The notes beneath the pieces were generated by a model. The model had not been told where the DNA came from, ran no database searches, and saw only the letters and a list, made by a program, of their open reading frames with translations. Below, piece by piece: positions 12,131 through 64,000 of a stretch of 64,000 nucleotides of DNA. This stretch comes from Chalara sp. BL73. Taxonomy: Eukaryota > Ascomycota > Leotiomycetes > Helotiales. The stretch's first letter is position 1, and the number at the start of each line of letters is the position of its first letter. Location of the stretch: the NCBI GenBank assembly GCA_918026815.1, contig CAKJVC010000145.1, positions 1 through 64,000 on the forward strand, written 5' to 3'. The position numbers and the translations under genes were made by a program.

Positions 12131-12299
12131 TAGACTGCGGAGGACCCAGTGGGTTATCGGCCAACCCAGTGGGTAACCCAACCCAGTGGGTAACCCAACC
12201 CAGTGGGTCGGGTTAGGTTGATATTTTATTGATTTAACTCAGTAAGTTCGACTTAATTTAATAAATTGCTAAAACATACTATAAGTATTAGTAATATAT

Positions 12300-15200
12300 T
12301 ACTAATACAAAATTTGTGCTTAAAACTAAGTTAGATTTTAAAAACACAAATTTTTTAGTTGTATTAAATAGCGATTAGTAGAAATATTAGTAAAAACTAA
12401 CTTAAAAATTGTAGTAAGTTTTTTTAAAAAAAAATCAAATTAAATAATCAGCTTTAATTTAACTGTAGCTTTTATTTATATAAAAACTGAACGAAAAAAA
12501 ATGTATTACGAGTTTTGCAAAAAGCTAAAATGCTTGTTAAAAGTTTAATTCGGTTTATTTAAAAATTAATTAAAGTTTAATCGAAAATATTGTTTTAATA
12601 CTATTAATTTTGCATTTATAAATATAAGTGCAAAAAGCTTAAAAACTTTATTTTTAAATTTATATTAAATACTTTTTTCGTATGAATAAATTAAAAACAT
12701 TATATACAGCCGGATTTTCGAATATTTTTAACTGTTTTAAAAAATACTAAAATAAAAAAAAATTGCGTTTATCGTTTTTATATACGTAATTATCGAGTAA
12801 TTCGTCGGCTAATATATTTTAAACAGCTTTTTATAAAACTGTATCAGTGTACAAAATTAGAGTATTAGATTAGATTATAGCATAATACTCTAATCTAATC
12901 TAATTGAAAAATCTAATAATCTAATCTAATCTAAATCTAATTTAACTAATTAAATTATATTTGAGTATGTTAGAGTATAATTACGTAAGCTGCTATATAA
13001 GCAAGGAAATTGTTATTCCGTTCCGAGCTAAACCTAATTAAGTAAAGTTTTTCTCGGTTAATTTTAGCTTCTTGAAACCTTTTTTTCGTACAATTTCGGT
13101 ATAACAATATAAAGCTTCGACAAAAATCTCGTGATTTCTGATAACTTTATAAGTAATAACTTATTAGCAAAAGCTTAATTAAAGAACTTTGTAATTAATT
13201 CTAATTAGTGTTTTTTATAGTAGATTAAGTTTATTACAACAAACTTATATTAGATTATAATTTAATTATTTTTGATTGCTACTCTAAATCTAATCTAATC
13301 TAATAAAATTTTCGCTACTTTAATCTAATTTAATCTAATCTAATTATAATTGAATATAATTGAGTAATTAGAGTTTTTTGTTCTCACACTGAACTGTATA
13401 AACAATTTAATTAAATTTTTTATTATTATTTATATACAAATTGTTATTTAAATTATTAATTCGTTAATAATTTAAATTATTTTTAAGTTTTTGTTGTTAA
13501 TATTTAATTGCAATTTGTTTGTTAGTTATTAACAATATTTATATTGTATAACAAAGTTATATACTAATTGTTAATACTATAATTTTTAATTTAATTATAA
13601 TATACTAAAATTAGTATACGAATTGTACTAAATTTTAACTGTTTTTAGCAATAATAACAAATATTTTTAACAAAATTAAAAACTCGCTTTATATTAATAC
13701 TAGTTATAAATATACAAAAAAAATTTTTATTAACGTTATTAAATTTAAAAGTCGAAATTTAAATTTTTTTTACATTTTAAATATTTGTTTATTATTATTT
13801 ACTATTATTAAAATTAGTATAAAAATTAGTATAAAACAAAATTAACTAAAATAACTTTTAAAAAAAAATTTACAAAGTAATAAATACTAATTTATTTTAT
13901 AATTAACAAAATTTTTAAATAAATCGTTGCTAAAAATATTTCGACTAATTCGGTTTTTATTAAAAACAATTGTTAAAAAATTAAAATTAATATCGCGAAA
14001 TTATTAAAACGACTATATATTACTTTTTTTAAAAATATAGTTTCGATTATACAACGTATATAATTGTAATTTAAATTTAAATTTTTAATTTTTGTTTTAA
14101 AAATTTAATTAACAAAAATCGAAATTAAAATATTTAAATTTTTTAAATAAATTAAAAATCGTTACAATATTATATAAACTGTTTACGTTACTATAAACTT
14201 TATTGTAATATTTATTAAGTTTTTTTTTTGTTACAAAAAAACTTTTTATTATTAGTTTTATTTAAAAAAACTAACTTTTTTAGTTTAAAAACATTTACAA
14301 GTTTTTTATAAACGTTTAAAAAGTTTGTTATATATTTTAAAAGTATAAAAACTTGTTATTTTCGATATTTTGCCGATATTTGCAATAAAAAAATTAAAAA
14401 GTCGAACAATATCGACTAAATATTTAAATATTTTTTATTTTTCGTTTTAAAATAAAAAATATTTTATTAAAATTACTAATTTTTAAATTTGTTATTTAAA
14501 ATTAGTATAAATATTAGTTTAACTTAAATAAAAAATACTTTCGCTAAAATATAAAAAAATTTTGTTAATATATTTGTTTTAATTTTTTTAAATTTTTAAA
14601 TTTTTAACTTTTTACTAATTACAAATAAATATTTCGTTTAATAAATTTAAACGAAATTTTTTAGCAAAACTTTTAAAATTAATTAAATAATATACAAAAA
14701 ACATAAAATATATTAAATAAAACCGTTTAATAGTTTATTGTTAATAATATTTTTTAAAAAACTGTTAATTTTTTTAATTATAATAATATTGTTTAATATA
14801 TTGTTAATAGTAATCGACAATACTTTTTAATTTAATTTGTATTTTGCAATTATATTATTAATAATTTTTGTAAATTATAATTTAAAATAAACAAATATAC
14901 AATTTTCAAATATAATTAATTTATTACGTAAATTTTAATTTGTATCGATATAATAAATAATAATAACTATAAAAAAACGTTAAATTGTATTTAATTAGCA
15001 ATTAAAAAACAGTGTTATTTTACTTTTAAAAAACAAATTTAATAAAAGTCGTTTTTTTAATTTTTTAATATATTAAATTAAACGATTTTTTAACGTTTTT
15101 AATAATAATAAAAAAAAATTAAAATTTTGTAAAAAACTTAATTTTTTTTATTTTACATTTTTAACAGTATAAAAAAATGTTTGTAAAAATACAATAGTTA

Positions 15201-17619
15201 AAAAAACTTAATTATAAAATAATTGTATAATAAAACTAAATAATCGCTATATATTATTAGTTTGTATTTTATACTAATTTTTATATTAATTAAATTTATA
15301 AATTAGCGTTTTAAAATAAATTTAAATGTAATTTAATAATTTTTTTAATATTTAAATTATTTGTTTAATAAGTTTTTATTGCAATATATTTAAATAAAAT
15401 AAACGTGCTAGTTATTTTAATATTAAAATAAACTAGTAAAAAATTACAGTTGCAATAAATTATAATTAATTTACTTGTTTAACAATAAATATTTTGCGAA
15501 TACTTTATTTATAATATTAAAGTTTTAGCTGTAAAATTTTAAATTGTTTTTTTAATAGTATTAATTAATTAAATATTATTTGTAATATACCGAATTACTT
15601 AAATTGTATTTTGTTATTATTTAATAAAATAAATATATTATAATTGTAACTATAAGTAATAAATTAAATTTTGCTTAATAATAAATAAATTAATATTAGT
15701 ATTACTAATATTGCTAAAGTTATTTATTAAAAATAAATTCGATATTGTAAAATATTTCGAAATAATTTTTAAAATATAAATTCGAAAATAAAAAATATAC
15801 AAACAAAGCTAAAATATTACAAAAAAAATAAAAACGGCTTTTATAATTTGCAATTACGTTTTTAAAACTAATTAAATATATATAATTTTAAAAAAGTTTA
15901 ATTAGCAATTAAAAATCGAAATATTAGTATAAAAATTAGTAAAATATTGTTTTAATTCAGTTTTACGATTGTTTAATTTTAATATGTTTAAAATAAACGT
16001 ATTAATATTTTAAAACTTGTTTTAAAACAAATTTAGTTTTAAAAAAAAATTTAAATAAACAAAATTTAAAACTTAAATAATTAATTATATTATATACTTT
16101 TTTTGAATTTTTTTTTACTAAAATTATAATTATTGTTTTTTAGCTATTAATTGAATTTTTCGGTATATAAAATTTTATTTTATAAACTTTATATATTAAA
16201 TCGAACTACTAATCGACAAAATTTAATAATTTGTTTTTTTTTTGCTGTAAAGTATTTGTTAAGCGAAATACGCGGAATTAATAAGCTACAAAATAATAAT
16301 AAACAATTTAAACAAATTATTATTTAATAGTATTTATATTAAAACAAAATATTTAATTTTTTTAAACAAACTGTTTTTGTTTTAACGTTAAATATACTAT
16401 TAAATTCGAAATTCGATTATAAAAAACTTTTATATAAAATTAGTATTATATTAATTTTTGTACTAATTTTTACATTATTAAAACGTATTAAAACTGTAAA
16501 TTTTATTATAGTATATTTTGCTAAATTAAGTTTTATTCGAAATTTTAAAATTACTTTTTTTTTTAATTTTATTTTTTATTTTGCTTTTTTTTTTTTTTGT
16601 ATTTATACTTTTAGTTGCTATTGTACTTTTAATTTTTTTTATACAAAGTTTTCGTTATTTTTAATCGCAAATTTTTTTTTTATTTTTTTTTAATTAAAGT
16701 TTTTTATTATTAATTTTTTATTTTTGTTTTCGCGTTGTTTAATATATATTAATTAAACGATTATAAAACATTTAATTTAATTAACTGTTTTAACAAAATT
16801 TCGGTTTTCGATATTATAATTATACGTTATTATTTATTACTGTTTATAGTTTAAAACTTCGTTATAATTTTTAACTTTTTTTTTATATATATAACAATTG
16901 TTTAATTATTTTGCTCTGTTATTTTAATTGTTTTTTTAATTAAGTCGTTACTAATTTAAATATTGCGTTTACGAATTTTAATAGTATTTAAATTAGTTAA
17001 CAAAAATTCGACTGTTTTACGTTTTCGACTATAAATTGCTACAAAAAAAAACTGTACATTTTTTGTAGCGATTAATAAAAAAATTAATATAAACAAATTA
17101 AATTTTACTTTATTGTAATTTAAATTTATTGCGACAAATTAAAATTAACAGTTAAAATATAAATAATATAAAAAATTTAATATTATACAATTAAAAAAAT
17201 TAGTTTTTTTTTATCGATTAATAAAAAATTTAATACAAATAAAGCTTAAATTTTATATATCTATATTTTGTAAAAATATTAGTTTAAATAATAATTGTTG
17301 TTTTGTTTATTAATATTTAAAAACTAAAAATTAAAAATATTGCTAAAATAATACTTACTGCTTTTTTATTTAAACTAACAATATTAATAACTTATTTTTA
17401 ATTTTATTTTTGATTTTTAATTTTTACAATTAAAATTAAAACTACAGTAACAAATACAATTTTTATTGTATTGTATTAAATAAACTTATTATTATTATTA
17501 TTTTGCTGTTTTTACTAGTTTTATATTAATTTCTTTATTTAAAACGTATTATTTTTAAATTTTTTGTTAGTAAACTGCAATAAAAATAAACTTTTACTTT
17601 AATTTGTAAATACAATATT
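12300..17619. other. Extremely AT-rich, RIP-type DNA of the hAT relic
   Basis: No open frames of note. Long stretches contain almost only A and T with isolated CG dinucleotides. CA and TG are rare and TA is abundant, the composition left by saturating RIP. Paired ATTAGTATAA-like boxes remain, for example at about 13,815-13,835, 14,503 and 15,925. Confidence 0.7.
12845..13391. mobile_element. 547-bp non-autonomous hAT MITE
   Basis: The ends are CAGTGTACAAAA on the left and, inverted, CAGTGTGAGAACAAAA on the right. It is flanked by a perfect 8-bp target-site duplication AACTGTAT (12,837-12,844 and 13,392-13,399). The subterminal regions hold arrays of TAATC units (ATTAGATTAGATTA near 12,860-12,950; its complement near 13,280-13,345) in inverted orientation, as is common for hAT transposase-binding sites. 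No coding capacity. The TIR differs from that of the host relic, so it belongs to another hAT family. It inserted into the relic. Confidence 0.85.
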
Positions 17620-17811
17620 TGTCACGATCACGATCCTATGGCCTGTAAGGGCGCTGAATAGGTGTTTCAATTACGAGAATACTAAACTAAGGAGGAAAGG
17701 TGTAGCTGTTGCTGTGGCATCCCTGATATCAAGACTATGACCACGTGACCACCATAGGCGAGCTGGTAAGCGAACCAATGGGCGTCTGGTGCGATATTGA
17801 GGAGCGTGACA
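17620..17811 (-). repeat. 3' LTR of chromovirus 1
   Basis: 192 bp, nearly identical to 23,331-23,522. GC-balanced, in sharp contrast to the flanking AT-rich DNA. Confidence 0.92.
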
Positions 17812-37375: not shown

Positions 37376-37727
37376 TGTTACGGTTTTATTAGCTTACAAC
37401 TGATATAAATAAAAAATCTGAGTCCGAGAGCTGTTAATCTGGAGAAAAGTAAATATATTACATATAAAACTTTTAATCCCGATAACAGTATAGTATTAAA
37501 ATACTATATTGAGTTGAGCACGAAGTTTTTATCTAAAAAAAAGCTATTTACTTATATAAAACCTTTGTAGGTTGGATTATTGCATAACTATAATCCATTT
37601 AGGATTATAGATTATAAGTGATCCATAATCCATCACGTGATCCTTATCCCAGGAGTTTCTTTGTGTAAGCTAAGCTTACCGAGCCTCAGGCCCCTAAGGT
37701 ATAAGCCTGTTAGCGATGCGCGTAACA
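37376..37727 (-). repeat. 5' LTR of chromovirus 2 copy B
   Basis: It ends (+ strand) GATGCGCGTAACA and retains GC-rich blocks (GAGCCTCAGGCCCCTAAGG) that are lost in its 3' LTR. This mirrors the asymmetry in copy A. Confidence 0.9.
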
Positions 37728-38041
37728 AGTATACAAAATCGAAATTTAAAATACTATATTTTTAAAAATTAGTATAAAAATTAGTATAAAAACTAATTGT
37801 AATATTTTTTAGTTTTTAAATATTATTATAAAAATTAAATATAAAACTTTTTAATTTTTTTGGTTATAAACAAAATCACGTATTAAAACTTTATATTTTT
37901 TTAGCAATTTACTAAGTCGAGTTATAAATTTACTAAGTTAAGTTGTAAATATAATTAATAACCCAGCCAACTTACTGAGGCCTTAGTAGGTTAAGTCGAA
38001 AGGCCGAAAACCCAACCTAACCCAACCTAGTCCGCAGTCTA
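37728..38041. other. Right terminal segment of the hAT relic
   Basis: It contains a paired ATTAGTATAA box near 37,768-37,792, then GC-richer subterminal DNA (CCTAACCCAACC) and the terminal TCCGCAGTCTA. No gene. Confidence 0.6.
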
Positions 38042-46628: not shown

Positions 46629-49600
46629 ATGGCAGATTTACAACCCACCCAGGTAAAGCGCATTCCCGAAACATTGAGTTATTTAATAGAGTTAAACAAG
46701 AGTTATAGTTTACTGCTTTGTTTGAATATGAAGTGTCGTTGTGCAGTAAGTCCGGCGGCTATAACCAACTATTTGCGCAAGCAACATCAAGTAAAGCTTG
46801 AGCTTCGCAAGCAAGTAAATCGATATATTGAAAAATTCCTATTTAAATATAATTATTCGACAGTTTAATTACTACCGGATAGATCCGCTTTACAGCCAGT
46901 AATTGAAGTTGTAGATAAATATCAGTGCAAGCATTGCCTACTTGAAAAGACACAAAACCGCGGCAACGCTAGAAAGCATAGAAACAAAGCTTACGACAAA
47001 AAGAAAGTTGCAGATAAAGATTTATTTGATTGCGTTAAGCTGCAGTTATAGTTCAAAAAAGAAAAAAAGCGCTATTAAGTTGTGGATAAAAGTTAGCAGT
47101 CAAGTCAGCTAGTACAGTTACGTGCCAGCCCGGCCAACCAAGCAAATAACGGCTATAATAATAACCGGAAAAATAACAGCGATTATAATAGTAACGGTGA
47201 AAATAATAATCAAGAAATCATCGATAACTAGATTGTGCGAAATATTAAAGCATAAAAAAATCAGGCCAAAAAACGCCGGCTGACATTGTTGCAAAAAAAG
47301 CTACTTATAGAAGTTGATTCGTGGCTACAATTTACTTAATAGAATAAAGTTTTAAGCCGGTTTAAGCACGATATAGTTAAAACTCACCGTTTTGCCCGGG
47401 AAGCCGATTTCGACGAGCCCGAATTGGTTCGCATTGCTAAAGCATAAAACCGGATATTGAAGCGGTGTTTAAATACGTTAACAGCGTCCGACTACAAAAA
47501 TACGCTTAAATAGTAGAAATCACCAAAAAACGAAGCAGCTAGCCAGCATTCGTTCGAGTTGCCGCAAAATGCAAAAACTATTACTAAGTATAGTAAGTTA
47601 TAGCAGCAAGAACTATGTTACTGAATGCGAACAGCGTTAGCGAAGTAAAAAAATGAAACAAAGACCGGCGTGCAATTTACTGAACAGCAGTTCGAAAGTA
47701 TACACAAAATCCGAGTAATGTTGCAAACCGATTTTTCAGAAAATAAGTTTACCGAAAAGAAAAAGCGAAACCGAGCATTAACGACCGAAGTGATGCGGTT
47801 GTGTATGTTAATTGTGATGCAGGATATAAGCAAGATTTCTGTGTACGATTTTCTATTGATGCATTTTTTAGCCGTAATAAGTGTAAATGCACACATTAAA
47901 ACGCTCCGTTTATTGTTTCATTATACCAAGTTTTTAGCTGCGGTTTTGTATATTAACCGGTTAATTATGTTAGAAGTGGCCGTTTCAGCAAAAGCATAGC
48001 TTATGTTACCAAGTCGAAATAATATTTTCGATGTTTCGAATCGCATTATGCAGATTCGAAGCAAACATTTATGTAAAAAGTCGTTTTCGCTTACATTATG
48101 CATTTTAAGCCAGTTGGCCATAAAAAAAGCATTTAATAAGTTGCACAAGTCCGCACTTAACATTTATTGGTCGGACGACCAGCAAACTATTTTTTATAAA
48201 AGCCGACCCGTGCGGCTAGAAAAGATTTCCAACATGTGTCACGCCGTTAATACCGAGCTGCAAGAAATGTTAACGTAGTTAATGTTTAACGAAGCCGGTC
48301 CCGACATTGATTTAAGCCAGATTACCGACAGTATAGTATAAAACTACGAATTCCGGCGTGATAAGTATAGTTTTATTCAGCATTTTTAAAACCAGCATTT
48401 AAATGTTGAGTATTAATAGTTATTAACGCGTGCGCGAACGGCCCGTAGCAAACGGCAAATTATCAAAAAAAGAGTAAGTAGACAAAACGAATAGATTAAG
48501 CACCGCGTAAATGCGTATTTAACGGTTAAAAAAAGGTTTTTGCGAAAAGCTATAAAAAGAATTCACATTCAATATAAGCAGCTCGCTCGTGGACCGGAAA
48601 TTAGGTCGATCAAAGTTAGTAACAGTATATATTCCGTTCGAAATATATACGTGATTAATGGCCGAGTGTGTATTTTAACGATGTACGACAAAGCCCGGAA
48701 ACGGCGCGGCAACACCGAGTACATTGTCCGGTTTTTGCCCGATAAGCCGAGTTAGATAATTGTCCAGTATCTTGCTTGCGTTCGTCTATTCGCGCGAGCA
48801 TTGAATTAGCGCGAGTCCGAATATTTGTTTAAAAATGACCGAAGTTTATAAGCGGGCGAAGAGTTGTTTCGCGAATTAAAAGCAATTACCGGCAAGCATT
48901 TAAGCGTAAAGTTGGTCGTGTCGTTATAGCGTTAAACTGCAGTTAAAATCGCTAAATGTTATTTAATCCGGGCAAGCAAGTCATAAAAACAGAAAAAAAA
49001 AAGTAATAAGAATAAAGACAATTTTGCAAAAAAGAACGATAAAGAAAAATTGCAGGCTACAATGTTTTAGCATGCTGTAGTTCGGCAGTTTAGCTACGGC
49101 TAGCGAGTTGCACGAAATCATTATGCTATTAACGGGGGATTTTTGCATCGGTTAAGGCCCGAGTTGTTGCGCGTGTTTAAGCAAGCATTAATTGCATGGC
49201 ATAATTTATTCCATTTGCGGTCGGACAGAACTGGTCGACGCGCGAAAGCGTTTAGCTATCGGCGTGCCGCCAGCTAGCAGTTGGTGTTTTTATTCGAGAA
49301 AAAGATCAAAGCCGAAAAAAGGGTTTCACCGGAGTATAGTGCTGCATTCCGTAAAGCTATAGCCGGTTTGCACCGAATCGGGTTTACTCAGCTGCAATCC
49401 GAAAGTCAAGCAGCAGCATTAAAATTGGTTTATAACTTTTTAGCAACGTTTATTATTGTGTTGCCGACGAGCAGTAGCAAGTCCGTATTGTTTTTTTCCG
49501 TAGCAGCTATAGCTGAGCAACAAACGGTGATTGTTGTAGTTCTATTTGCTGCATTAGTAAATAATTTAGTTCAGCGTAGCCAACAAACCGAGTTAGCGTG

Positions 49601-50965
49601 TAAAAAGTAGTTCGAGCTGCACTTATGTAGTGAAATGCAGCAGCTAGTTATTGTTAGCGCCGATCGGGCCGTAACTAGAAAGTTTCGACATTATACTAAA
49701 AAATTAGAATTGTATCGGCGGCTGGCACATATGTTTTTTGACGAAAGTTATATAGCATTCACCGATATATCGTTCCGGGAGCAGTTGCGTAATTTATAAA
49801 CGTTGCGGTATTTGAATTGCTCGTTTACGTGTTTGACTGTTACGTTAATCGTGCAGCTGAAAAACGTGTTGCGGAATAAATTATTGATTTCCGATACGCA
49901 GCTGTTCCGACGGTTTACCGCACGCCGCACTATTCGATACCGCGTTTACGACAGTAAAAATGAAGCTTCGTTCGTAGTTAAGTTACGAGTAATTTAACGG
50001 TTGGTATTGCCCGCCGGAAAACGAAATGTAATTTACGTTCGCAGTTACGCTACTAGCGAAATTATCCGCGACGCGATGCAGTGTTTATTTTACAAAACAC
50101 GAGCAAATAACAAAAAAGAGTTATTACAAGCGTAAATGCAAAGTTGTAGTTAGATTGTAGCGACCGGTGCGTTAAAGACGAAGATTAATATCGCCGACAT
50201 TATTTTCGTGGTTTATATTAATCGGCTATATAAGTTAACTAGTTTTGCGCAGCAGTCCGGTCGCGGTAGAAAAAGTAGCGAAGTAAGCGATTTTATTGTT
50301 ATTGTCCGAGTCTAGACTACTAGCGGGCAGCGTTGGAAAAAAGTTTTAAGTAAGTATTGCGTTAAGCAGGTTAATAAAAACGCTATAACGAAGTTTTTGC
50401 AGGTGGAAAAGTGTCGGCGGCAAGTAATAGCAAAGCATTTCGATAGTAAAACGAAAAAAACCGATTGCAAAAGCACTAATAGCATTTTGTATAATTAGTG
50501 TAGTATTAATTCCCGTTAGCTTACAGTACTGAAATGTTAAAATAAAAAAGTTAAAAGCGAATATATAAACGCGGTAAGTAGTGAAGCAGCACTAGAAACG
50601 AACAGCGAAGTTCGCAGTAGTCAAATAATTGCCGGTAAGTTAAAAGCGTTAGCCGAAGCGAACAAGTTTGTATTCTAAGCTATAAACGTATTAAAAAGCG
50701 AGTGCGTGTATTGCGAGTTCGTTCGCATTGATAGCGGAGCTCACGAACAGCTGCATCCGTATGCAGAATGTTTTGCCGCAGAAGCTAATCGCGTCGGTTA
50801 TAGTAATTTTCAGCAGTAGCGAAAACAGGTAAATTTTGGAAAAGAGTTTAAACATTGTTTTAATTGTAGGTTGCTTTAAAAAATGTGTCGAAAGCAAGAA
50901 ACCGAAAAAGCGTGTAAGTATATCGATGTGATGTTGGCCGGGATTTATATATTACACGAATAAGG
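46629..50965 (+). pseudogene. OrsD-type zinc finger / RecQ-like helicase pseudogene (mobile-element ORF), RIP-damaged
   Basis: Start MADLQPTQVKR at 46,629, then an OrsD/DUF3505-type segment (LLCLNMKCRCAVSPAAITNYL, KQHQV). A further Cys pair (YQCKHCLLEK) lies near 46,922. The helicase part begins near 49,370 (HRIGFTQLQSESQAAAL). Its P-loop region IIVLPTSSSKSVLFF has Gly-to-Ser changes in the expected TGSGKS, a RIP-type G-to-A effect. A DExH-box-like MFFDESYIAFTD lies near 49,735. Helicase-C blocks follow, then a Cys-rich C-terminus (CVYCEFVRID, HCFNCRLLQKMC) to about 50,965. Frames are interrupted by TAA/TAG codons derived from CAA/CAG, about one per 50-150 codons. This architecture matches repeated, often subtelomeric, fungal RecQ-like helicases. 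It is the first gene of the large element interrupted by the hAT. Confidence 0.75.
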
Positions 50966-51149
50966 ATTTTTAATAAGTAGAGTTTAAAGCGTCGGGTTTT
51001 AAAGAGATTATTTCAGAGATTTATAGAAGTAGATAAAAAAAGAAGCAAAGAAGTTCGGATCGGTTATCGAAAGTAACTGAATAAAAACGTGGCGAGAAGT
51101 TTGTATTGTATATTTAAAGATGCGACAAAAGTATCGAGCAAAATGATTT

Positions 51150-52116: not shown

Positions 52117-52124
52117 GCTAGCAG
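52117..52124. repeat. hAT target-site duplication, left (GCTAGCAG)
   Basis: Identical to 58,357-58,364. An 8-bp duplication is the hallmark of hAT integration. Confidence 0.95.
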
Positions 52125-52581
52125 TAGACTGCGCAGAAACCCACGGGGCGGGCCGGGGCCCCCGACCCATGGGACCCCGTGGGTCGGGTCTTCGAGGCTC
52201 GCTTCCCCCGTGGGGTGGGTTGTATATTTTGACCCCAACCCGCGGGACCTCAATGGGGCCCCGATAAGATTAACTAAATATAGAAACTACAGTCAAACTC
52301 CTCTACAAGAATGTAGGGCGGACTGGCGGAATTTTAAAAATATACGAGGTATTCTAGTATCGAGATGATTCTTTCCAGTTTTGGCATTGATTTTTCTATG
52401 TGCACACAGGTTAAACAAGGCTATTTTGTATACTTGTTTTTACAAAAGTACTTGAAATGCAAAGTGGTTGATTAGTATAAAAATTAGTATAAAAATTAAA
52501 CTTCAAATGTTAAATCTAAACATATTGTAATAGAGTGGAAAAAATTGTGAATTATAATAATACAACACTAATATTCTAAAA

Positions 52582-55395
52582 CTAATTTTTTTTTTGCTTT
52601 TTTGACCTGTGAATGCCTATTGGAGTATCCGGCACAATATTACCAATACCAGGAGTCGGAAGTCGAGGCAGCTCTTGACTACTATTACTAGATAGTTCCC
52701 AGTTCGTTGTTTCAATTGACGGTTCGCGGCGATTCCTAAGTGTATTTTGAAACTGAGTAGTCGAAAGTGGCTGATTTTGATGAATTGATTGACGTAAAGA
52801 TTTAGAAATCTTGTAATCCCAGCGTTCTTGAGCACGACGAGTTCGAACTTCTTCGTTTCCTTCTGGTTCTTCATCACTAATATAGTAATGATTTTCCCAA
52901 AGATCAATTTGATCAAGTTGGACTTCAAGATCATTTTCTCGCGTTTTAATTTCCGTTTCCATATCTTCAAGTGTCATATCCTGGATATTAATAGTTGAAA
53001 ATAGTAGATTTTGAAGCTCACGTGTTCGTGAATGTTCAACGAGCGAATGATAAACCAAAAGAAGCGACCGAATAGTTGTCGGTTGAAGCTGGCCACGGCG
53101 ATATCCGCATATATCACGTGCAAAACTAAAAGCACGTTCTACTCCAACACCGGCCATCGGGATACAAAGTAAGTCTCTAGCCATTGCTGATAAGCCAGGA
53201 AGCTGTGTTTCAAGCGATTTCCAAACAAGTAGCGGTGATCGATTATCAGGCTCTAAAAAAACAACACAAAGATTAGTATAAAAATTAGTATAAAAAGTAG
53301 AATTGTAAACATACTCATAGCCAGCCATTCATCAATTTCAGAAGGAGAAAAGTCATCATCTTTGCGATAAGGGTTCTGAATGTCTCGAGTAAAGCGCTTG
53401 CGACTTAATGCCAATGCTAAAGGGTCGTGATTAACTTCTCGAATTTGAGAAAGTCGGTCAGCATTCGTAGACTTTTCTTTATATTCCGTATCGTATAACG
53501 ACCGAAATTGACGCTCAAATTCTTTGGCCCAATCAACTGTTTTGAAATTAAGCCAGCAGTAATCTTCTTCAAAGCATTTTAGCTTCGATTTTGGATCAAG
53601 AATTGCTCCGATGCCATACAAACTACCAAGACTACTATATGTTTTGTTATAGTAAGTATCAAGCTTGGCTTCTGCAGCGTTAATCGCACCAATTAAATCT
53701 TTTACCCAAAGTTGAGCAACAGACTTTTTGGTTAATACTCGGCGAGATTCTTGCAAGTGTTCAAACAATTCATCGTAAATTGATAAAGCATAAGGCAATG
53801 TTATGCTTGTTGTTTTGCCGATTGTTGTTGTAAAAAAATTGAAAGGACGTAACAAATCGGCCAAATAGCCAAGTTTTTTCCATTCTAATGCAGAAAAAGA
53901 AAAAGGCTTAGCAGGATCGTATGCACTGCAAAATTGATTGATAGACTCTTTAAGACGCAATGCACGAAGAATCATATGCACTGTTGAGTCCCATCGAGTG
54001 CATACATCAATTAACAATGTAAGAACTGGATCATTCGGAGAAGATGAATCTCTGATTTGTTCTTGTTGAACTCTTTGAAATCGATGTTTCCGCTGTGCAC
54101 TGGAATTAACAAGAATAGCAAGCTTTCGAATCTAATATAAGATTAGTATAAAAATTAGTATAAAAGTCACGTGTTACATACCTTTGCTAGTATATATGGA
54201 ATACCACGTTTGTCACTAGCTTTGATTCTCTCAAGATCAGACAGCTCTTTTTCTGCTACCCAATTCCGAACAAATGTGTCGTTAGTAGGCCTCAATTGAA
54301 CAAAGCCCAAAAGTGCTTGAAGACTAAGCTGAATCACATGCGATAAACACGGCACGTGTTGGACTTTTCTTTTTAGAATACTATTAGCTTTCAAAGCTTC
54401 TTGTAAGTATCCGTTGATTTCGAGAACCATTGTAGTATTCGAACTCGCATTATCAGTTGTAATTGAAACAACACGATCAAAAAAGATTGTGCTGTTGAAA
54501 AACGTTATTGACAACTTGAGCAAGCGCATTTCCGGAATGAACGTTTACTAAACTTTCAAATCCTATTAATTCTTGACAAAGAACCCATGACTTATCAATA
54601 TAGTGAGCTATTATACCCATAAATGATAGTCTTGTTGTACTAGACCAGCAATCAAGAGAAATTGCAATTTTGCTTCCAGGAACAACATTTGAAAGCATGT
54701 TCTGTTCAAGTTTGACTGATTGTTCCATTAGTCGATTCTTCATAGTTGTTGCAGAAGGAAGTTCGAAATTTGGATTTTGCATAACAGCTAGCTTTCTCCA
54801 TTCAGGATTTTCGACTGCGCGGAAAGAAGTACGAAGTGAAACAATAGTTGCAAGAACCTGGTCGTGAAATGCTTGCTTCGTAAAGATTGGTTGCTATTAA
54901 TATTAGACATTATACTAATATTTATACTAATCTACTTACAGAGATAGCGTGAAACATGTCTTCCACTTTTTTCTGCCTTGTATTACTTTGGCTAGAATAA
55001 ACAAAGCATTGCCGAGACGCTATATGACCAGACAAAGCTTTTGTGCCGGTATTCCGCGTATTTGGATGTGCGAGAACCTTGTTGCAGTTTTGACATATGA
55101 CTTTAGGCTCTCCGGTGATCCGGTGTATTCCTTGATCGAATTGTTTCCAAGCAATAGATTTTCGATTTTGAGATTTCCAATTTAATTGCTTTACCAAATC
55201 AATTGATTGGTTTGCAACTGCTTGAACTGCCCATTGTGTACTTAACCACCATTCAACAAACTTATCGTGATATTCGAGTTCCCATCGAAAATATAGGTTT
55301 TTTGGACCAATTTGCGAAAATAGTAAATTGTCAGAAGTATTTGGCTCAAATGAGCTAAAAGGATCAGAAAAGTCTTGCGAATTGCTTGACTCCAT
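52582..55395 (-). CDS. hAT transposase, four exons, one 1-nt insertion
   Basis: 884 aa from exons 55,395-54,940, 54,893-54,182, 54,131-53,315 and 53,252-52,582. An N-terminal BED-like finger (CQNCNKVLAH ... SGHIASRQC) should bind the transposon ends. The catalytic core has ISLDCWSSTT (first Asp), SITTDNASSN (second Asp), VPCLSHVIQLSLQALL (Cys/His of the insertion-domain region) and DVCTRWDS (the RW motif). The C-terminus SAMARDLLCIPMAGVGVERAFSFARD is the hAT dimerisation domain. Introns are 46-62 nt with GTAAGT/GTATGT donors. One extra T in a T6 run near 54,476-54,482 breaks the frame between HNLF and DRVVS; without it the exon sum is an exact 885 codons. Otherwise intact. Catalysis: cut-and-paste excision and integration with 8-bp duplications. 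Confidence 0.9.
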
Positions 55396-55632
55396 AGCAA
55401 CAAAAGTGTGCAAGTAAAAAAAAAAAGCATCAAATCGGAAAGAAAAAACAAGTATTTAAACACAAGTTAAATTACTACTTCCAAAAAATTGTACATATTA
55501 AAGGTTATAATTAAACTTCCAAAAATTAATGTAAAATATAATGATTAGTATAAAGATTAGTATAAAATTGAATATATCTGCTTAAAGTTCCTTGCTTCAT
55601 TTGTTGTATATACTTAAAAACTACATATACAT

Positions 55633-56937
55633 TTACAGCTTACGCGGCTTTTTAAAGCTGCTTTGTAAACCAAAGAATGCTTTAACGATTGTTTGACTTA
55701 AAGAATTGTCTGTCATCAAAAACAAATCATTATAAGCGGGGAAAATACGTTCGTATGATCCATCTTCCGGAATTTCCGTAGCATATACCATATCAAACGC
55801 TTCTCTATGGCCTGTCAACGAATCGGAGAAGCCGAATCCTGTGTCATTTAACTTATCGTCGGCTGGCCACCAATTTGCAGGGCCCGGCAGATCGATCCAC
55901 TCTTCATTTCCGTATGCCCATGCTGCAAGATTTTTCCAAATTGCCTTTTCTCCTTGAGTAAAGTATCTTTCAGGAGTTTTATACGCATAGAATTTGCTAT
56001 ATCAGTTAGCAGATTAGTATAAAAATTAGTAGAAATTTGTACTTCTTGTAAATGTAAGGACAGCTTGTTCTTTCCAAGTATTCCTGTCCACCAGCAGCAA
56101 GCTTTCGGATTTTGCGGAACAAAGATCGACGGCTTCGGCGCCATTTTCTTTGCCAAAACTTAAATTCAAGCTTTTTGGCATCCTGAAATTGTATTAGCGT
56201 TATACGAATCATTATATTAATCTGAAACTTACTAAAATGGATCGTTTATGCTTGGCAATCCCGTCATTTTTCAACTCTTTAGCAGATTTGCCGACAACTG
56301 CTTTATCACCGTTTTGCTTTTCATTCAATCTCCACATATGCTCAAACTCGTATTCGTCTTCCGATTCATACTCAATATCTTCCCATGCTGGATTTCCATC
56401 ATCATCAATTGCATATAGGCCACCAATTTCTCCATAACCCAAAGCTTTTGCCACAGATTTCCAATCTTTGCCATCTCGTTCACTATACAGGTTAGTATAA
56501 AAATTAGTATAATCAAAATTAAACGAACCGCTTTGTTCTAACTTGCAAAGCAGACTGCTCAATCATTCGCTTCTGCTCGGCAACAGATGCGAGTGCAAAT
56601 TCGGCAGACTTTTTGAGTACTTTTTTTCTGTATGTAATTGCTGCTTGATCTGCGGCTTTCGCTTTTTCGATCTGATTTTGAATACTGTTGCTTTTTATAG
56701 CTTCAAGTCTTCTTCTAGCTTTAACAGTATGCACATTGGTAGAAAAACTGCCCGGAGATTTGCGCTTGCGTTTATTGGAAGAACCGATTTGCTGCGAGGA
56801 ATCAAGATCCATATCAAATTCATGATCTGAATCATCAGAAATGACAATGATATCCTTGAAACCGATTAGTATACAGATTAATATAATATTTCAATAAAAA
56901 TTACCTGAGGAGGTTGCTTTTCGAAAGGTGAAGCCAT
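55633..56937 (-). CDS. hAT accessory protein, 370 aa, SIM-like motif and basic region, intact
   Basis: Five exons, 56,937-56,905, 56,854-56,529, 56,482-56,233, 56,182-56,043 and 55,996-55,633, sum to 371 codons in one frame. The third donor GTTCGT is unusual. N-terminus MASPFEKQPPQ, then DIIVISDDSDHEFD, a classic SUMO-interaction pattern (hydrophobic core followed by Ser/Asp). An NLS-like SNKRKRKSP follows, then a Lys/Ala-rich helix (residues ~55-110) and an acidic stretch (EDIEYESEDEYEFEH). Next is a very basic segment (KFWQRKWRRSRRSLFRKIRK), then an aromatic-rich globular part with EEWIDLPGPANWWPADDK. I know no family for it. It starts 524 bp from the divergent H3-like gene and lies tail-to-head upstream of the transposase. 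The SIM suggests contact with sumoylated chromatin or transposase, which is inference. Confidence 0.75.
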
Positions 56938-57460
56938 ATTGGAAAGTAACGCAACCGAAAAGTAGGCGTATTTTGCAAATTTCAACTCGCAAGAACTAGA
57001 GCTTCAAAAATTAGTATAAAGATTAATATAATACACCAAAAACACGTACTGCGATAGATGTTTGACTTTGTTCAGATTTAATAAGTTGGTGCAAAAAGAA
57101 TGAATGAGGGAAAAGTACGCGTTATCCTGAAAAATAAGGCAGTCGCGTTTTTATGCCTCGATTTTAAGGCATCCAACTACTTTTTTTAAACCTGACTTCT
57201 TTTAACCTTCAATTAAATTTACCAACAACTACACCATACACAAGTATGTATTATATTTATCTTTTTTATATTCTATTTTTATATTAATCATTATACTAAT
57301 TCTTTATAGTCTTCTCGTCGAAATCACAAAGCTATAATTTCAATTTCACGTGTCAATATTCACATTCACCTTCACCTTTTCTGAAAATAATTTGCGACTT
57401 TGCACAGGTACATATTATTCTGTATTATACTAATATTTATTCTAATCTTAATAGGTTACA
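56938..57460. promoter_or_regulatory. Divergent promoter region inside the hAT
   Basis: This spacer separates the starts of the SIM protein (- strand) and the H3-like gene (+ strand). It contains two paired ATTAGTATAA boxes (about 57,008 and 57,290). A probable 5'-UTR intron of the H3-like gene lies at 57,408-57,454 (GTACAT...AATAG), with another box inside it. Confidence 0.5.
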
Positions 57461-58011
57461 ATGGCACGTACCAAGAAAATAGCTACCAAATCTGCTCGCA
57501 AACCCTCTGCCAAAACCTCTGCCAAAACCTCTGCCAAAACCTCTGCTAAAACCTCTGCAAAAGCTGTACCAAAGAAGAAATATCGATTGAAACCTGGCAG
57601 TAAGTTGATTAATATAATAATTAGTATAAAACTAACATTTAAACGTAGCCAAAGCACTTAGAGAAATCAAACGATACCAAAAAAGCACTGAGCTTTTAAT
57701 CCCAAAAGCTCCATTTACTCGACTAGTTAGGGGAAATAATGTATGATATTACGTCTCGACACGCATTTCGCATTCAACTTAGTGCTTTACAATGTCTCCA
57801 AGAAGCCGCAGAATCTGCTTTGGTAGCTGAGTTCGAGCGTAAGTTATTTCATATAAATACATTATACTAATATTTATACTAATATTACTTTAAAGTCACA
57901 AATCTTGCCGCAATCCACGCTAAGAGAGTTACTATTCAAGTAAAGGATATGCATTTGGTTCAAAGAATGAGAGAGGGAATGACGGGCTACAAGTACCCAG
58001 GCCGGTGTTAA
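57461..58011 (+). CDS. Histone H3-like protein carried by a hAT transposon, three exons, one 1-nt insertion
   Basis: 147 aa from exons 57,461-57,599, 57,649-57,838 and 57,896-58,011. The tail is [18 protein letters not shown] followed by tandem TSAK units (12-bp DNA repeats). K4 and a K9-S10 pair are kept, but R8 is Thr and the K14-K18 region is lost. The histone fold is clear: [20 protein letters not shown], then [30 protein letters not shown] and [18 protein letters not shown]. His and Asp of the H3-H3' four-helix interface (HAKRVT, KD) are conserved. Loop 1 seems about two residues longer than in canonical H3, as in CENP-A, and the C-terminus ([14 protein letters not shown]) is longer. One extra G in a GGGG run near 57,726-57,731 shifts the frame between LVR and the next helix; otherwise the count is exact (148 codons). 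Likely role: replacement or decoy H3 in the nucleosome. Confidence 0.85.
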
Positions 58012-58356
58012 AGAATCAAACGCAGTTCATACAAAGGAAATGGGTTAAGCAATGGAGTTATTAAAGGTATACACGCTAGCGATAGGGCGCTAAGCACATA
58101 ATAAAATTCACAAACCAAAATTTTAATACGTTTATGTCGCGTAGCTTTTGATTAGTAGACTTATTAGTATAACTTCTCTAACTGTACAGCAACTATTGTA
58201 ATGTCACGTGTAAATGTAATGGGTGCTTGGCACCCCATCAAGACCCCATGGGGTGGGGTGGGTGCTTTTGATAGACCCCAACCCATGGGGTGGGACCCCG
58301 ACGGGTGGGGTCAAGTAGGTGAAAACCCGCCCCGTGGGACCCCAGTTCGCAGTCTA
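58012..58356. other. Right subterminal region of the hAT
   Basis: It contains one more ATTAGTATAA box (near 58,150-58,170) and a GC-rich block of CCCATGGGGTGGG/CCCCGTGGG-type palindromes (58,225-58,345) resembling the left subterminal block at 52,135-52,260. These are probable transposase-binding sites. Confidence 0.6.
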
Positions 58357-58364
58357 GCTAGCAG
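58357..58364. repeat. hAT target-site duplication, right (GCTAGCAG)
   Basis: Identical to 52,117-52,124. Confidence 0.95.
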
Positions 58365-59540: not shown

Positions 59541-59985
59541 AAGTTTTTACAAATCGGGATATTTTTTGCACAGTACGTGATTTTAAAGTTCGAAACAAAA
59601 CAGGCAGGTTTTTACAAATCGAGATATTTTTTGCACAGTACGTGATTTTAGAGTTCGAAACAAAACAGGCGAGTTTTTACACATTAGCGGATTTTTACAA
59701 ATCAGCAGGTTTTAACACATAAGCAGGATTTTGCGAACAAGTAAGTTTATAGAAACGCGTAGAGTTTTTATACGTAAGCAAGATTTTACACATAAGCAGG
59801 ATTTTACCAGCAAGTATATTTTTTTTTGCAAACGAGTAAGTTTTTACTAATATGCAAGTTTTTACAAACAAGCAAGTTTTTGCAAACAAGCAAGTTTTTA
59901 CAAGCAAGTGTTTGCACCCAGGTAGGTTTTAACAAACAGGCAAGTGTTTGCAAACAGGTAGGTTTTAACAAACAGGTCGAGGGGC
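59540..59985. repeat. Minisatellite arrays
   Basis: First, two copies of an about 69-bp unit (AGGTTTTTACAAATCGGGAT ... GATTTTAAAGTTCGAAACAA, near 59,540-59,680). Then an array of 15-18-bp units of the type CAAGTTTTTACAAACAAG over about 59,690-59,980. Confidence 0.8.
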
Positions 59986-60360
59986 GGCCGGGCCAGTTCC
60001 CTCGCAGGGCCACTTCGGCCACAGCGACGGCGACGGCGACGGCGACGCCCCGCCCGCCCGCGCGCCGGCTCCCCTCTTGCCGCGACCAACGCCCGCCGGC
60101 CTGGAATTAAGGCCCCGCCGTCGCCGGCGCGCGCGGCGAGGTCGTCGTCGCTTAGGTGGCGCTAGTCCTAACCAGGTAAACGTAGACATCACGTGACCAA
60201 CCCTTTCCGGCGGCATGGTCGAATTGCTTGCAGCTTACCCGCGACAGCATACTGCGTGTGCAGAAGCGGCGGCGCGTGCTCGCTGCTGCAAAACCCGGCG
60301 GCGAAACGTAGCTGTCGCGACATACAAATACTGCCACTGCCAAAGTCGCGCTAGTCCCAA
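59985..60360. other. GC-rich island inside AT-rich element DNA
   Basis: A sharp island dominated by CG-rich DNA, including a (CGACGG)n run near 60,024-60,048. It also holds half of a direct repeat pair (GTAAACGTAGACATCACGTG near 60,175 and GTAAACGTAGACATTATGTG near 60,364). Open frames here on both strands are composition effects. No gene is called. Confidence 0.6.
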
Positions 60361-60666: not shown

Positions 60667-63600
60667 ATGCTTCGTCGTAAGCTGTCTCCAAGATCAAAAC
60701 GTGCTGCGGCCACGGCGCGCACAAATCGATGGCGGCAGCGGGTTGCGACGCAGCAAAACCAAAACAGACAGCCTAAGCAGTTTTTGAATACTTTACTACG
60801 TAGCCAACAAGCAAAAGTCCCGACAAACGAGCATAGTAAAAACTTAAAAACAGCTTAGCCAAATACTTAAAGCGCTGCGGAACAAATTGGCTCAGCTGTG
60901 GCCAGCGCCGAAGTTCGGCTATGTATTAGCGGACTTTCAAGTTTGAATCAAAATAGAAGCAGCCGGCAACTATTTGTTGTAGGATCCAAGCGATCTAGTC
61001 GGCAAAGCTCAAGCCGAGCTTACAGCCGGATCAGCGACTACTATTGCGTTTCGAAGTCGGCGTTTTTTTTAGCGGCACAAACTGCTGGCCGCTAGCGAAG
61101 CAAAGCACTATCTTTAACACTACAACGCGTAAGCGGCGAAAGCGCAGCTAGCTTTGCTATTATTATCGACTATAATGCGTCTTTACATCGTACTTAAACT
61201 TTAAGCGACTTTAGTAGCTATACTTTAAACGATCAGAACATCGACGAAAGCGACAATGCTGCCGCTTAAAAGCAACTTTTTCAAGAAAAACGCACGCTTA
61301 ATATCGCAACTTAGCTAAGTCAGCATTTGCTCCGGTTTCGCGAGTACGAGCTCGAAGCGCACGGCCGGGCACAAGATCGCTACTTTCAGGACTTGCGTCG
61401 ATTTACTAACTACTATTCGTTAGCCGACTTTTAGCTTTTTACCGGGCAAATGCTTAACGTGTTTGGATTTTCCACGCTTTTGCAGCACAACAGCCTTAAG
61501 CTGACGCAGTTTATTGACTGGGCTCGCATTTTTGAAGGCAACTATACAGAAGCCGATAAAAAAGAAAAGGAAGAAGACGAAGCGCGAATCCATGTTTGTT
61601 TTTATAAGTCAGAGCAAATTTACCGCTTTATAGTCATTCAGTACAATGTTGACAGCGTGTTAAGGTACGCTAGTAGCTTTGCATTTGCAAAGCAAAAGCT
61701 GATAGTAAACCTGGCGCTTCAATTTTATTTTAACCTCCGGACTAACTTGCACTTTTTTATTTACGTTACTTACGATACTTCGCGAAAGCTTTAACGGCTC
61801 TGGGTCAAGCTGCACTAAGTACTTTATTACTGCTTTAGCTATTTAAGCCAACAAGCATATATTCAAGTTTATGTTTTTTTCCCGCGGCAATAGAACAAGC
61901 ACAAGCAAACCAACTTCTCTAGACAAAGCTTAAACGGCGAAAAGCACAAGCTGCTGCGAATATAAACCGATGAAATTCTATTCTCGGCGATCGCTCGTTA
62001 CGCTACTTTTAACATTAGCCAATATATGCTTTTTTCGTGGCGGCAGGCTCGCTTAAACGCCCGAGCTTACTACAGCGAAGCGAATACGCGGCAGTCCAAC
62101 ATAAGCTATTAGCGGATGTTTTATTCTGATTTGCAGCTCGATACTCTGGATCTGATCTGGCGCGATATACAAGATCGCTTTGGCGCGCCGGAATATGCTA
62201 TATACCAAAGCGCGTATTTCTTTTTTTTTAGCAAAAATACTAAAGTTAAGTACAAAACTGCTACGCTGGCCGGAATGTAGAAGAAGTTCGGTGCAGTGTT
62301 GTATACTACACTTGACTTTCGGTATTTTAACAAAGACCGAATTTGGCTTGACCTGGACAAGAAAACCGCATGCGCGGACTAGTGCTTGCTACAGCAGGAT
62401 CTGTCGCTTAACTAAGCGCCCGCTACATATTTGATGCGATTTTGCTGTATCGAGGCTTTTTACTAGTAGTCGCATTTCGGAGAACTTTTATTACGAGCTA
62501 AAAAAACTGTGTATATGCCGGCGATACTTAGTGAAATTTATAATGTAACTGTAAAAATGTTTTTTAACTTTATAAAGCGAAGCGAAAGTTGGATATTTTA
62601 CCAGATGTACAACAGCTATAAAAAAATAACAAATGTTGCTAAAACAAAGCTATTTCGGAGCTCGTATTTAAAGCAGCTTGCCTGGAACGCTAAAGTGCGC
62701 GGCATAATCGAGCAAGCCGGCGGCCGCCCTGTTATTAGCGCCGCTCGAGTTCGGGCAAATTATAGCAACAGCAAAACTAGACTGGCCGGGGCGCTTTCTG
62801 ATAGCCGCAAAAAGTCGTATAGCGTTCGCGAAGAGCATCGTATTTTTTTTACTTTTTTTTATCGGATGCAAAACGGCTTTATAACGGCTAGTAACTAAGA
62901 ACAGCAACTAAGTCAGAATGCTACTTCGCATTCGTTTTGAAAGTTTTCGAGCAGCTTATTTACTGCATTTTTAAAATACAATGCGAACAAGTTCTTTTAC
63001 GCTATTGAAAAAGCTTTAGCTTTGGCTGCGGATAGCTTGATCAGCTACGAGCGCTGCAAAATTATTGCTATGCTTTTCGACGCAGTCAAGTACTGTTACG
63101 ACACGTTTTTTTTGTTCTGCGAAAGCAGCTTATAAAAAAACCGGTACCGAGTCAACGAAACCGGTTCTTTTAAGCAGAAAGTTAAGCTTCAGCAAACGAT
63201 TCATAAATCGGGCTATAGCTGGCTTTTGCTTAAAGTTAACTGGCAGCAACTAGTATTCCGGCTTGAGCTTACGCAAGAAATTCGGTACAACGAAACCGCT
63301 TTATACGATACGTATCGAAAGCGGTAAGCGGCAGTAAAAAACGTGAAAAACGATTTTCAGCGGTTTAAAGTCGCTTACGGGTAGTTCGGCTTATATTGTG
63401 CTAACTCGCTGCTAGCAAATTGCGTGCTCGAGTTTATTATTATTTTTGTTATTTACTGCTTTCGCAAAAACGTTTTTTAAGCTATTAAAAAAAATATTCG
63501 ACTCGAATATTAAAAAGCAGCGTTAACGAGCAAAGTTATATTTTGCAAAACGTTGTTGAAGTCTGTTTTTTTGCCGGGAAAAACCGAGGCTAACTGCTTT

Positions 63601-64000
63601 TTATACATTGTCGAAGCGAACCGAGCGAAAATCCGCACTTTTACGTAGCTAGTAGACTTTTTATAAAACTTCGACGATAGCTACTAACGCACTTAGTAAA
63701 CAAATCGCAGTTACTGTGTATTTTACTAGCGAATACTTCAAATTACGCAAATTTATTACGGCGTTAATTAGGCGAAGCTGCTCGGCGATATAATCAAACG
63801 ACTGTTTATTGCTACTAATTGGATCGTTTTTTACTTAATCGAAACTAAGTTCTTTCGGCAAAGCAGCAGCAACAAGCGCTATTAGATGTCGATTTGCCAC
63901 TAAAACTGAGTCGATCGTTTTTCTACTGAAACTATTCTTTTGATCGAGCTGCTGGCTTTTACACTGGATAGCAAACGAAGCTCACAACACTACTTACTCG
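60667..64000 (+). pseudogene. Very long intronless pseudogene of the large mobile element, runs off the window
   Basis: One frame is maintained from MLRRKLSPRSKRAAATARTN at 60,667 to the window end (more than 1,100 codons). It is interrupted by TAA/TAG codons that are almost all explained by CAA/CAG to TAA/TAG. The N-terminus is basic, and Gln/Ser-rich stretches follow. Later blocks include RFREYELEAHGRAQDRYFQD, KLTQFIDWARIFEGNYTEAD, LFSWRQARLNARAYYSEAN, LDLIWRDIQDRFG, TLDFRYFNKDRIWLDLDKK and YLKQLAWNAKVRGIIEQAGG. I do not recognise a domain. Position after the helicase pseudogene and equal RIP damage suggest it is the second gene of the same mobile element, perhaps a replication or recombination protein. 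That is inference. Confidence 0.6.

Follow-up and report, generated by a model that had tools for sequence, protein, structure and literature searches.

A hAT transposon family of Chalara sp. BL73 with a histone H3-like gene and a motif array in its introns

What would a DNA transposon do with a histone of its own? The question is raised by a locus within the window (the whole stretch of 64,000 nucleotides of Chalara sp. BL73 that was analysed), where a gene for a histone H3-like protein, here H3L, is found between the ends of a hAT element. The element almost certainly represents a recently active, multicopy ascomycete hAT family with three genes, encoding a transposase, a central protein and the histone H3 variant H3L. 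The preliminary description knew of no DNA transposon family carrying an H3 variant and found that the locus looked most like an undescribed system. This was wrong: the same cassette was published in 2013 from Pyrenophora tritici-repentis (PMC3538342), and the present element is a further member of the known hAT-H3L kind.

The element and its copies

The H3-like gene does lie inside a complete hAT element, as first described. The element comprises 6,232 bp and is bounded by perfect 9-bp inverted ends (TAGACTGCG) and identical 8-bp flanks (GCTAGCAG), ends and duplication being read from the window sequence. Of its three genes, the hAT transposase and the central gene are encoded by the minus strand and H3L by the plus strand (Table 1). 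Around the element, a short GC-rich island was seen at 59960-60160 within a strongly AT-rich flank, and the regions at about 49500-51000 and 60900-64000 contain many stops in long coding-like stretches, by eye probably RIP-damaged retrotransposons.

Table 1. Coordinates of the element, its genes, introns and motif pairs in the window
Feature	Position	Strand	Details
Left 8-bp target-site duplication GCTAGCAG	52117..52124	.	sequence read directly
Whole hAT element, 6232 bp	52125..58356	.	ends, duplication, other copies with the same ends
Left terminal inverted repeat TAGACTGCG	52125..52133	+	sequence read
Motif pair TTAGTATAAAAATTAGTATAA, left terminal spacer	52472..52492	+	
hAT transposase gene	52582..55395	-	exons 55395-54940, 54893-54182, 54131-53315, 53252-52582
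Transposase intron 3	53253..53314	-	motif pair at 53273
Transposase intron 2	54132..54181	-	motif pair at 54143
Transposase intron 1	54894..54939	-	motif pair at 54910
Motif pair, spacer between central gene and transposase	55545..55565	+	
Central gene, 370 aa	55633..56937	-	exons 56937-56905, 56854-56529, 56482-56233, 56182-56043, 55996-55633
Central-gene intron 4	55997..56042	-	motif pair at 56014
Central-gene intron 3	56183..56232	-	motif pair at 56200
Central-gene intron 2	56483..56528	-	motif pair at 56492
Central-gene intron 1	56855..56904	-	motif pair at 56866
Putative central-gene 5'UTR intron	56996..57049	-	motif pair at 57011; GT-AG limits by eye
Putative H3L 5'UTR intron	57244..57309	+	motif pair at 57279; GT-AG limits by eye
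Putative H3L 5'UTR intron	57408..57454	+	motif pair at 57425; GT-AG limits by eye
Histone H3-like gene H3L	57461..58011	+	exons 57461-57599, 57649-57838, 57896-58011; ATG at 57461, stop ends 58011
H3L intron 1	57600..57648	+	motif pair at 57609
H3L intron 2	57839..57895	+	motif pair at 57862
Weak motif pair (3 mismatches), right terminal spacer	58152..58172	+	
Right terminal inverted repeat	58348..58356	-	sequence read
Right 8-bp target-site duplication GCTAGCAG	58357..58364	.	sequence read

The transposase comprises 884 residues in two open copies (L047 and L048), and in the window copy its frame is broken by a homopolymer length difference. It matches Dimer_Tnp_hAT (PF05699; E 5.5e-10, 39.3 bits versus a cut-off of 21.4); the hAT RNase H-like domain PF14372 reached 20.6 bits, under its cut-off of 27, with a single exon as query. 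The central protein contains acidic stretches. Two fungal homologues were identified for it, about 39% and 41% identical, figures that are approximate because about 48 residues of exon 4 stood in the wrong frame in the query. Neither of these two matches was a Pyrenophora protein, and no Pfam family was found above the cut-off with three exon pieces of the gene and the two homologues. A model of the central protein from the two homologues was too poor for use (mean pLDDT 45.6).

With up to 3 mismatches allowed, the genome contains thirty hAT left ends, the window's own included. A search of the same genome with PF00125 gave 31 matches, sorted by judgement into 24 H3L-like places and 7 others. 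Inspection of the latter covered four, namely H3 (L001), CENP-A (L002) and, by eye, a CBF/NF-Y-like (L003) and an H2A-like protein (L054), leaving out those on C52, C33 and C1. Twenty-three of the H3L-like places have a left end at a distance of 5,496-5,533 bp; for the 24th, on C73, none was listed. This number of places and the constant distance rule out a one-off processed capture, an outcome for which the preliminary description had allowed. The exon-2 frame is open without stops over 124 residues in seven of the 24 places, is limited to 36 residues in nine, and is shorter or contains stops in eight. The 36-residue frame is that of the window copy; six of the nine places were read at letter level and all share the break.

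Fifteen of the 30 left-end places were examined whole, together with the window copy. Both ends and identical 8-bp flanks were present in 14 of the 15 fetched copies, with 13 different flank sequences among them, and in the last one the right end was absent from the stretch fetched. The copies L045 and L046 (contigs C17 and C18) carry the same flank, ATTGTGGG, suggesting that the region was duplicated or that a haplotype contig stayed unmerged. The alignment of the 15 full copies (14 fetched plus the window) comprises two groups. Eight copies are almost identical, indicating recent movement of the family; the other seven are heavily RIP-mutated, with 224 to 1,069 C-to-T or G-to-A changes each, as against no more than 19 of the reverse changes and no more than 15 transversions. 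Recent and mobile, the family is also subject to RIP. Of the early suggestion that H3L might serve to evade heterochromatin or RIP, the part on RIP fails as far as outright escape is concerned, given these seven copies of 15.

Within the genome the copies differ almost solely by RIP and homopolymer indels. Among the eight freshest the differences are mostly one-base homopolymer indels, breaking different genes in different copies, and H3L and the transposase are both open in none of the eight. Such breaks vary between otherwise identical copies, the one in H3L having been read in six; they may come from slippage in a mobile family or from residual read or assembly errors in homopolymers.

The window also contains, at 12131-17620 and 37700-38041, an older relative from the same hAT family that has identical 9-bp ends and is heavily RIPped. 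It is split by a later insertion that starts near 17621 and resembles, by eye, a long-terminal-repeat element. No duplication is left, since the flanks past its two ends do not match. After C-to-T collapse it is colinear with the fresh element (best E 5e-113), in a comparison where the collapsed opposite-strand control still matched, down to E 3e-21.

The H3L protein and its relatives

The HMM search proposed in the preliminary description gave a histone match: H3L spliced from the open copy L004 matches PF00125 with an E of 8.7e-30 (103.9 bits versus a cut-off of 26.4). The MARTK start, the alpha-N helix and the EAAES and HAKRVT blocks first noticed are all present, but the whole fold is not encoded by the window copy, since its frame stops after 78 residues because of a homopolymer of differing length in exon 2. 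The full protein of 147 residues is open at three other loci, L004 (the same place as L051), L005 and L006.

Residues were read from an alignment to ordinary H3. Retained in H3L are MARTK with K4, together with K56, R69, R72, R83, K115, K122, H113, D123 and L126, where H113, D123 and L126 are what we take to be the face for H3-H3 pairing. K79 is missing, P replaces R63, T replaces R8 beside K9, and a repeated AKTS tail stands where H3 has the stretch leading to K27. The alignment gives loop 1 two residues more than H3 has, a feature insufficient alone for CENP-A. Together with the sequence, a structure predicted for the Bisporella relative P0001, and not for the protein of the window, shows a histone H3 fold for H3L. 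The model comprises the alpha-N, alpha-1, alpha-2 and alpha-3 helices at a mean pLDDT of 67.7, and its nearest PDB folds are nucleosomal H3 chains.

The protein closest to H3L is from Bisporella sp. PMI_857, 90% identical. Tricladium contains both an H3L relative (62% identical, in an entry that represents three contigs) and a relative of the central protein (about 39%, from the approximate query), as expected if the cassette travels together. Five aligned H3L relatives are 55-92% identical and share 47 invariant columns, and the proteins of several fungal genera that group with H3L keep the histone domain.

The tree comprises 17 rows and 104 columns, with its root for drawing only. The rows on the H3L side were hand-picked by eye as ascomycete proteins with H3L-like features, whereas P0039 (fetched) and other listed H3 proteins were left out. 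A profile search with the H3L set was swamped by long or ordinary H3, and four more ascomycete rows were taken from the best 120 of 7,992 matches. A split at 100/96 sets H3L and nine H3-like proteins of ascomycetes apart from H3 and CENP-A; it may partly reflect the choice of rows, as these were hand-picked. The nine are from Bisporella, Tricladium, Pseudogymnoascus, Clarireedia, Stromatinia, Talaromyces (three proteins) and Paracoccidioides, genera of the Leotiomycetes and Eurotiomycetes. The other side of the split holds five rows of H3 or H3-like proteins and two of CENP-A, the host CENP-A grouping there with S. pombe cnp1 at 93/95. The well-separated group and the 90% identical Bisporella relative argue that H3L is probably maintained and not decaying.

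Two other origins were considered and rejected. The two introns of H3L sit where the host H3 gene has none, and these differing positions together with the tree rule out a fresh copy of host H3. A captured CENP-A is ruled out by the tree, despite the longer loop 1; the best 60 of 176 PDB matches of H3L were all named H3 and none CENP-A.

A motif pair in introns and spacers

The non-coding part of the element contains a paired 9-bp motif, TTAGTATAAANATTAGTATAA. Searched at up to 3 mismatches, it was identified at 15 sites in the element versus 0 in each of 30 shuffles. There is exactly one pair per coding intron in all nine, three sites are found in spacers, and none of the 15 touches the 4,214 coding bases (Table 1). 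Within introns the pair occurs in both orientations. The limits of the three putative 5'UTR introns were drawn around motif sites, so that they give no independent support to the rule of one pair per intron.

Exact motif pairs number 202 genome-wide, and exact sites of a reversed control pattern zero. Of the first 100 of the 202 exact matches, 98 are inside element copies by our own count, so the motif is no general host intron signal. Two exact pairs outside the listed copies (C9:1384443 and C9:1826264) may mark further decayed elements. The older RIPped relative retains nine motif sites in 12131-17620, versus 0.13 expected. The motif pair contains no CpA, the usual target of RIP.

Known systems and the possible role of H3L

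The nearest known system is the 5.6-kb hAT element of Pyrenophora tritici-repentis, with a transposase, a central ORF and H3L (Manning et al. 2013, PMC3538342). It shares with the present element the three genes between inverted ends, many near-identical copies, and an H3L that is neither H3 nor CenH3 and has an altered N-terminal tail; ESTs exist for the Pyrenophora gene. Its authors asked if selection keeps a transposon-borne histone and suggested drift. The element described here is larger (6.2 kb, the two being compared by description only), and it differs in the strong RIP on part of its copies and in the array of motifs in introns and spacers, of which the accessible part of the Pyrenophora paper makes no mention.

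An independent, RIP-inactivated capture of H3 by a hAT element has been reported from the Mycosphaerellaceae (Dhillon et al. 2019, PMC6710886). The elements of Pseudocercospora, Cercospora and Sphaerulina have, as here, 8-bp duplications, H3-like sequence and RIP in copies. They comprise 9.5 kb and carry an intron-free copy of a host H3 transcript, with the extra copies inactivated. Unlike that capture, H3L has two coding introns of its own, belongs to a variant lineage apart from host H3 and is present in open copies.

The motif array has its closest parallel in VANDAL21 of Arabidopsis, where VANC21 targets the motif YAGTATTAY in introns, intergenic regions and terminal non-coding parts (Hosaka et al. 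2017, PMC5735166). Common to both are a short motif repeated in non-coding parts and accessory genes in the element. VANDAL21 belongs to another superfamily and kingdom, no histone is reported for it in the accessible text, and motif binding and loss of marks were shown there for VANC21. The array may be said to resemble VANDAL/VANC anti-silencing in its layout, not in membership. Fungal DNA transposons, hAT included, have also been described with TET/JBP dioxygenase genes (PMC12730594); they too have an epigenetic gene aboard, but one for a methylcytosine enzyme and not for a histone. Among the papers listed in literature searches, none reported an H3L element from a Leotiomycete or an array of intron motifs within such an element. 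New here are a further hAT-H3L member, a group of H3L proteins that stands well apart, and the motif array.

A role of H3L at the element is possible. In the likeliest reading, held tentatively and with a probability of roughly 0.4, H3L is an accessory chromatin protein that would lower silencing while the element is active. H3L keeps K4 and the residues through which H3 pairs with H4 and with another H3 molecule, whereas the surroundings of K9 are altered and the K27 region is unrecognisable, so that nucleosomes with H3L should be poorer substrates for heterochromatin marks. We infer that H3L would be expressed and made during bursts of activity, would be incorporated into nucleosomes and would counter silencing, the element thereby staying transcribed and transposable; the motif pairs in introns and spacers would likely bind an element protein, either the transposase or the central protein. 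The freshest copies include ones whose H3L is broken, so that the gene need not be intact in cis. A further reading, judged improbable, would combine these elements into a sequence-addressed replacement of chromatin: the acidic central protein or the transposase would bind the motif pairs and load the element's own H3 variant, whose tail seems poorly suited to K9 and K27 marks, leaving the element open and the host spared. To our knowledge no transposon has been shown to write nucleosomes of its own, and none appeared among the papers listed in literature searches.

The main rival to an accessory chromatin role is that H3L is a passenger, captured once as an H3 variant (transduplication), amplified with the element and drifting without a role. 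Such a history would agree with the short broken exon-2 frame common to nine of the 24 H3L-like places, which has not kept them from spreading, and with the drift suggested for published H3Ls, being near the view that Manning et al. (PMC3538342) took of the Pyrenophora H3L. It agrees poorly with the grouping of H3L, across several fungal genera, with proteins in which the histone domain is retained, with the 47 invariant columns of five relatives at 55-92% identity, and with the better conservation in Tricladium of H3L (62%) than of the central gene (about 39%). A passenger H3L is a real possibility, on the doubtful side.

Rather unlikely, in turn, is that the motif has nothing to do with chromatin, serving splicing only or marking introns that an intron-generating sequence has spread. 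It occurs once in each of the nine coding introns, one of its orientations contains the branch-point-like ACTAAT, and the two introns of H3L are at positions absent from the host H3 gene, all of which would suit an origin in splicing or intron spread; the use of either orientation in introns, and the further sites in three spacers, would not. The place of H3L in one cassette with the transposase and the central ORF, also seen in the Pyrenophora element, might suggest that H3L acts with the transposase in transposition, for instance by making donor or target chromatin accessible or by tagging copies. Against this stand the broken H3L of some of the freshest copies and the fact that hAT elements generally move without a histone; such a role is considered improbable.

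Selection on H3L becomes testable through the fold-keeping H3Ls across genera, a second species with relatives of both H3L and the central protein, and the motif in nine coding introns, with open and broken copies present in one genome alongside RIP. Should H3L enter chromatin at the element, it would offer a natural means of replacing H3 locally, and one short motif per coding intron hints that the element may manage its own chromatin.
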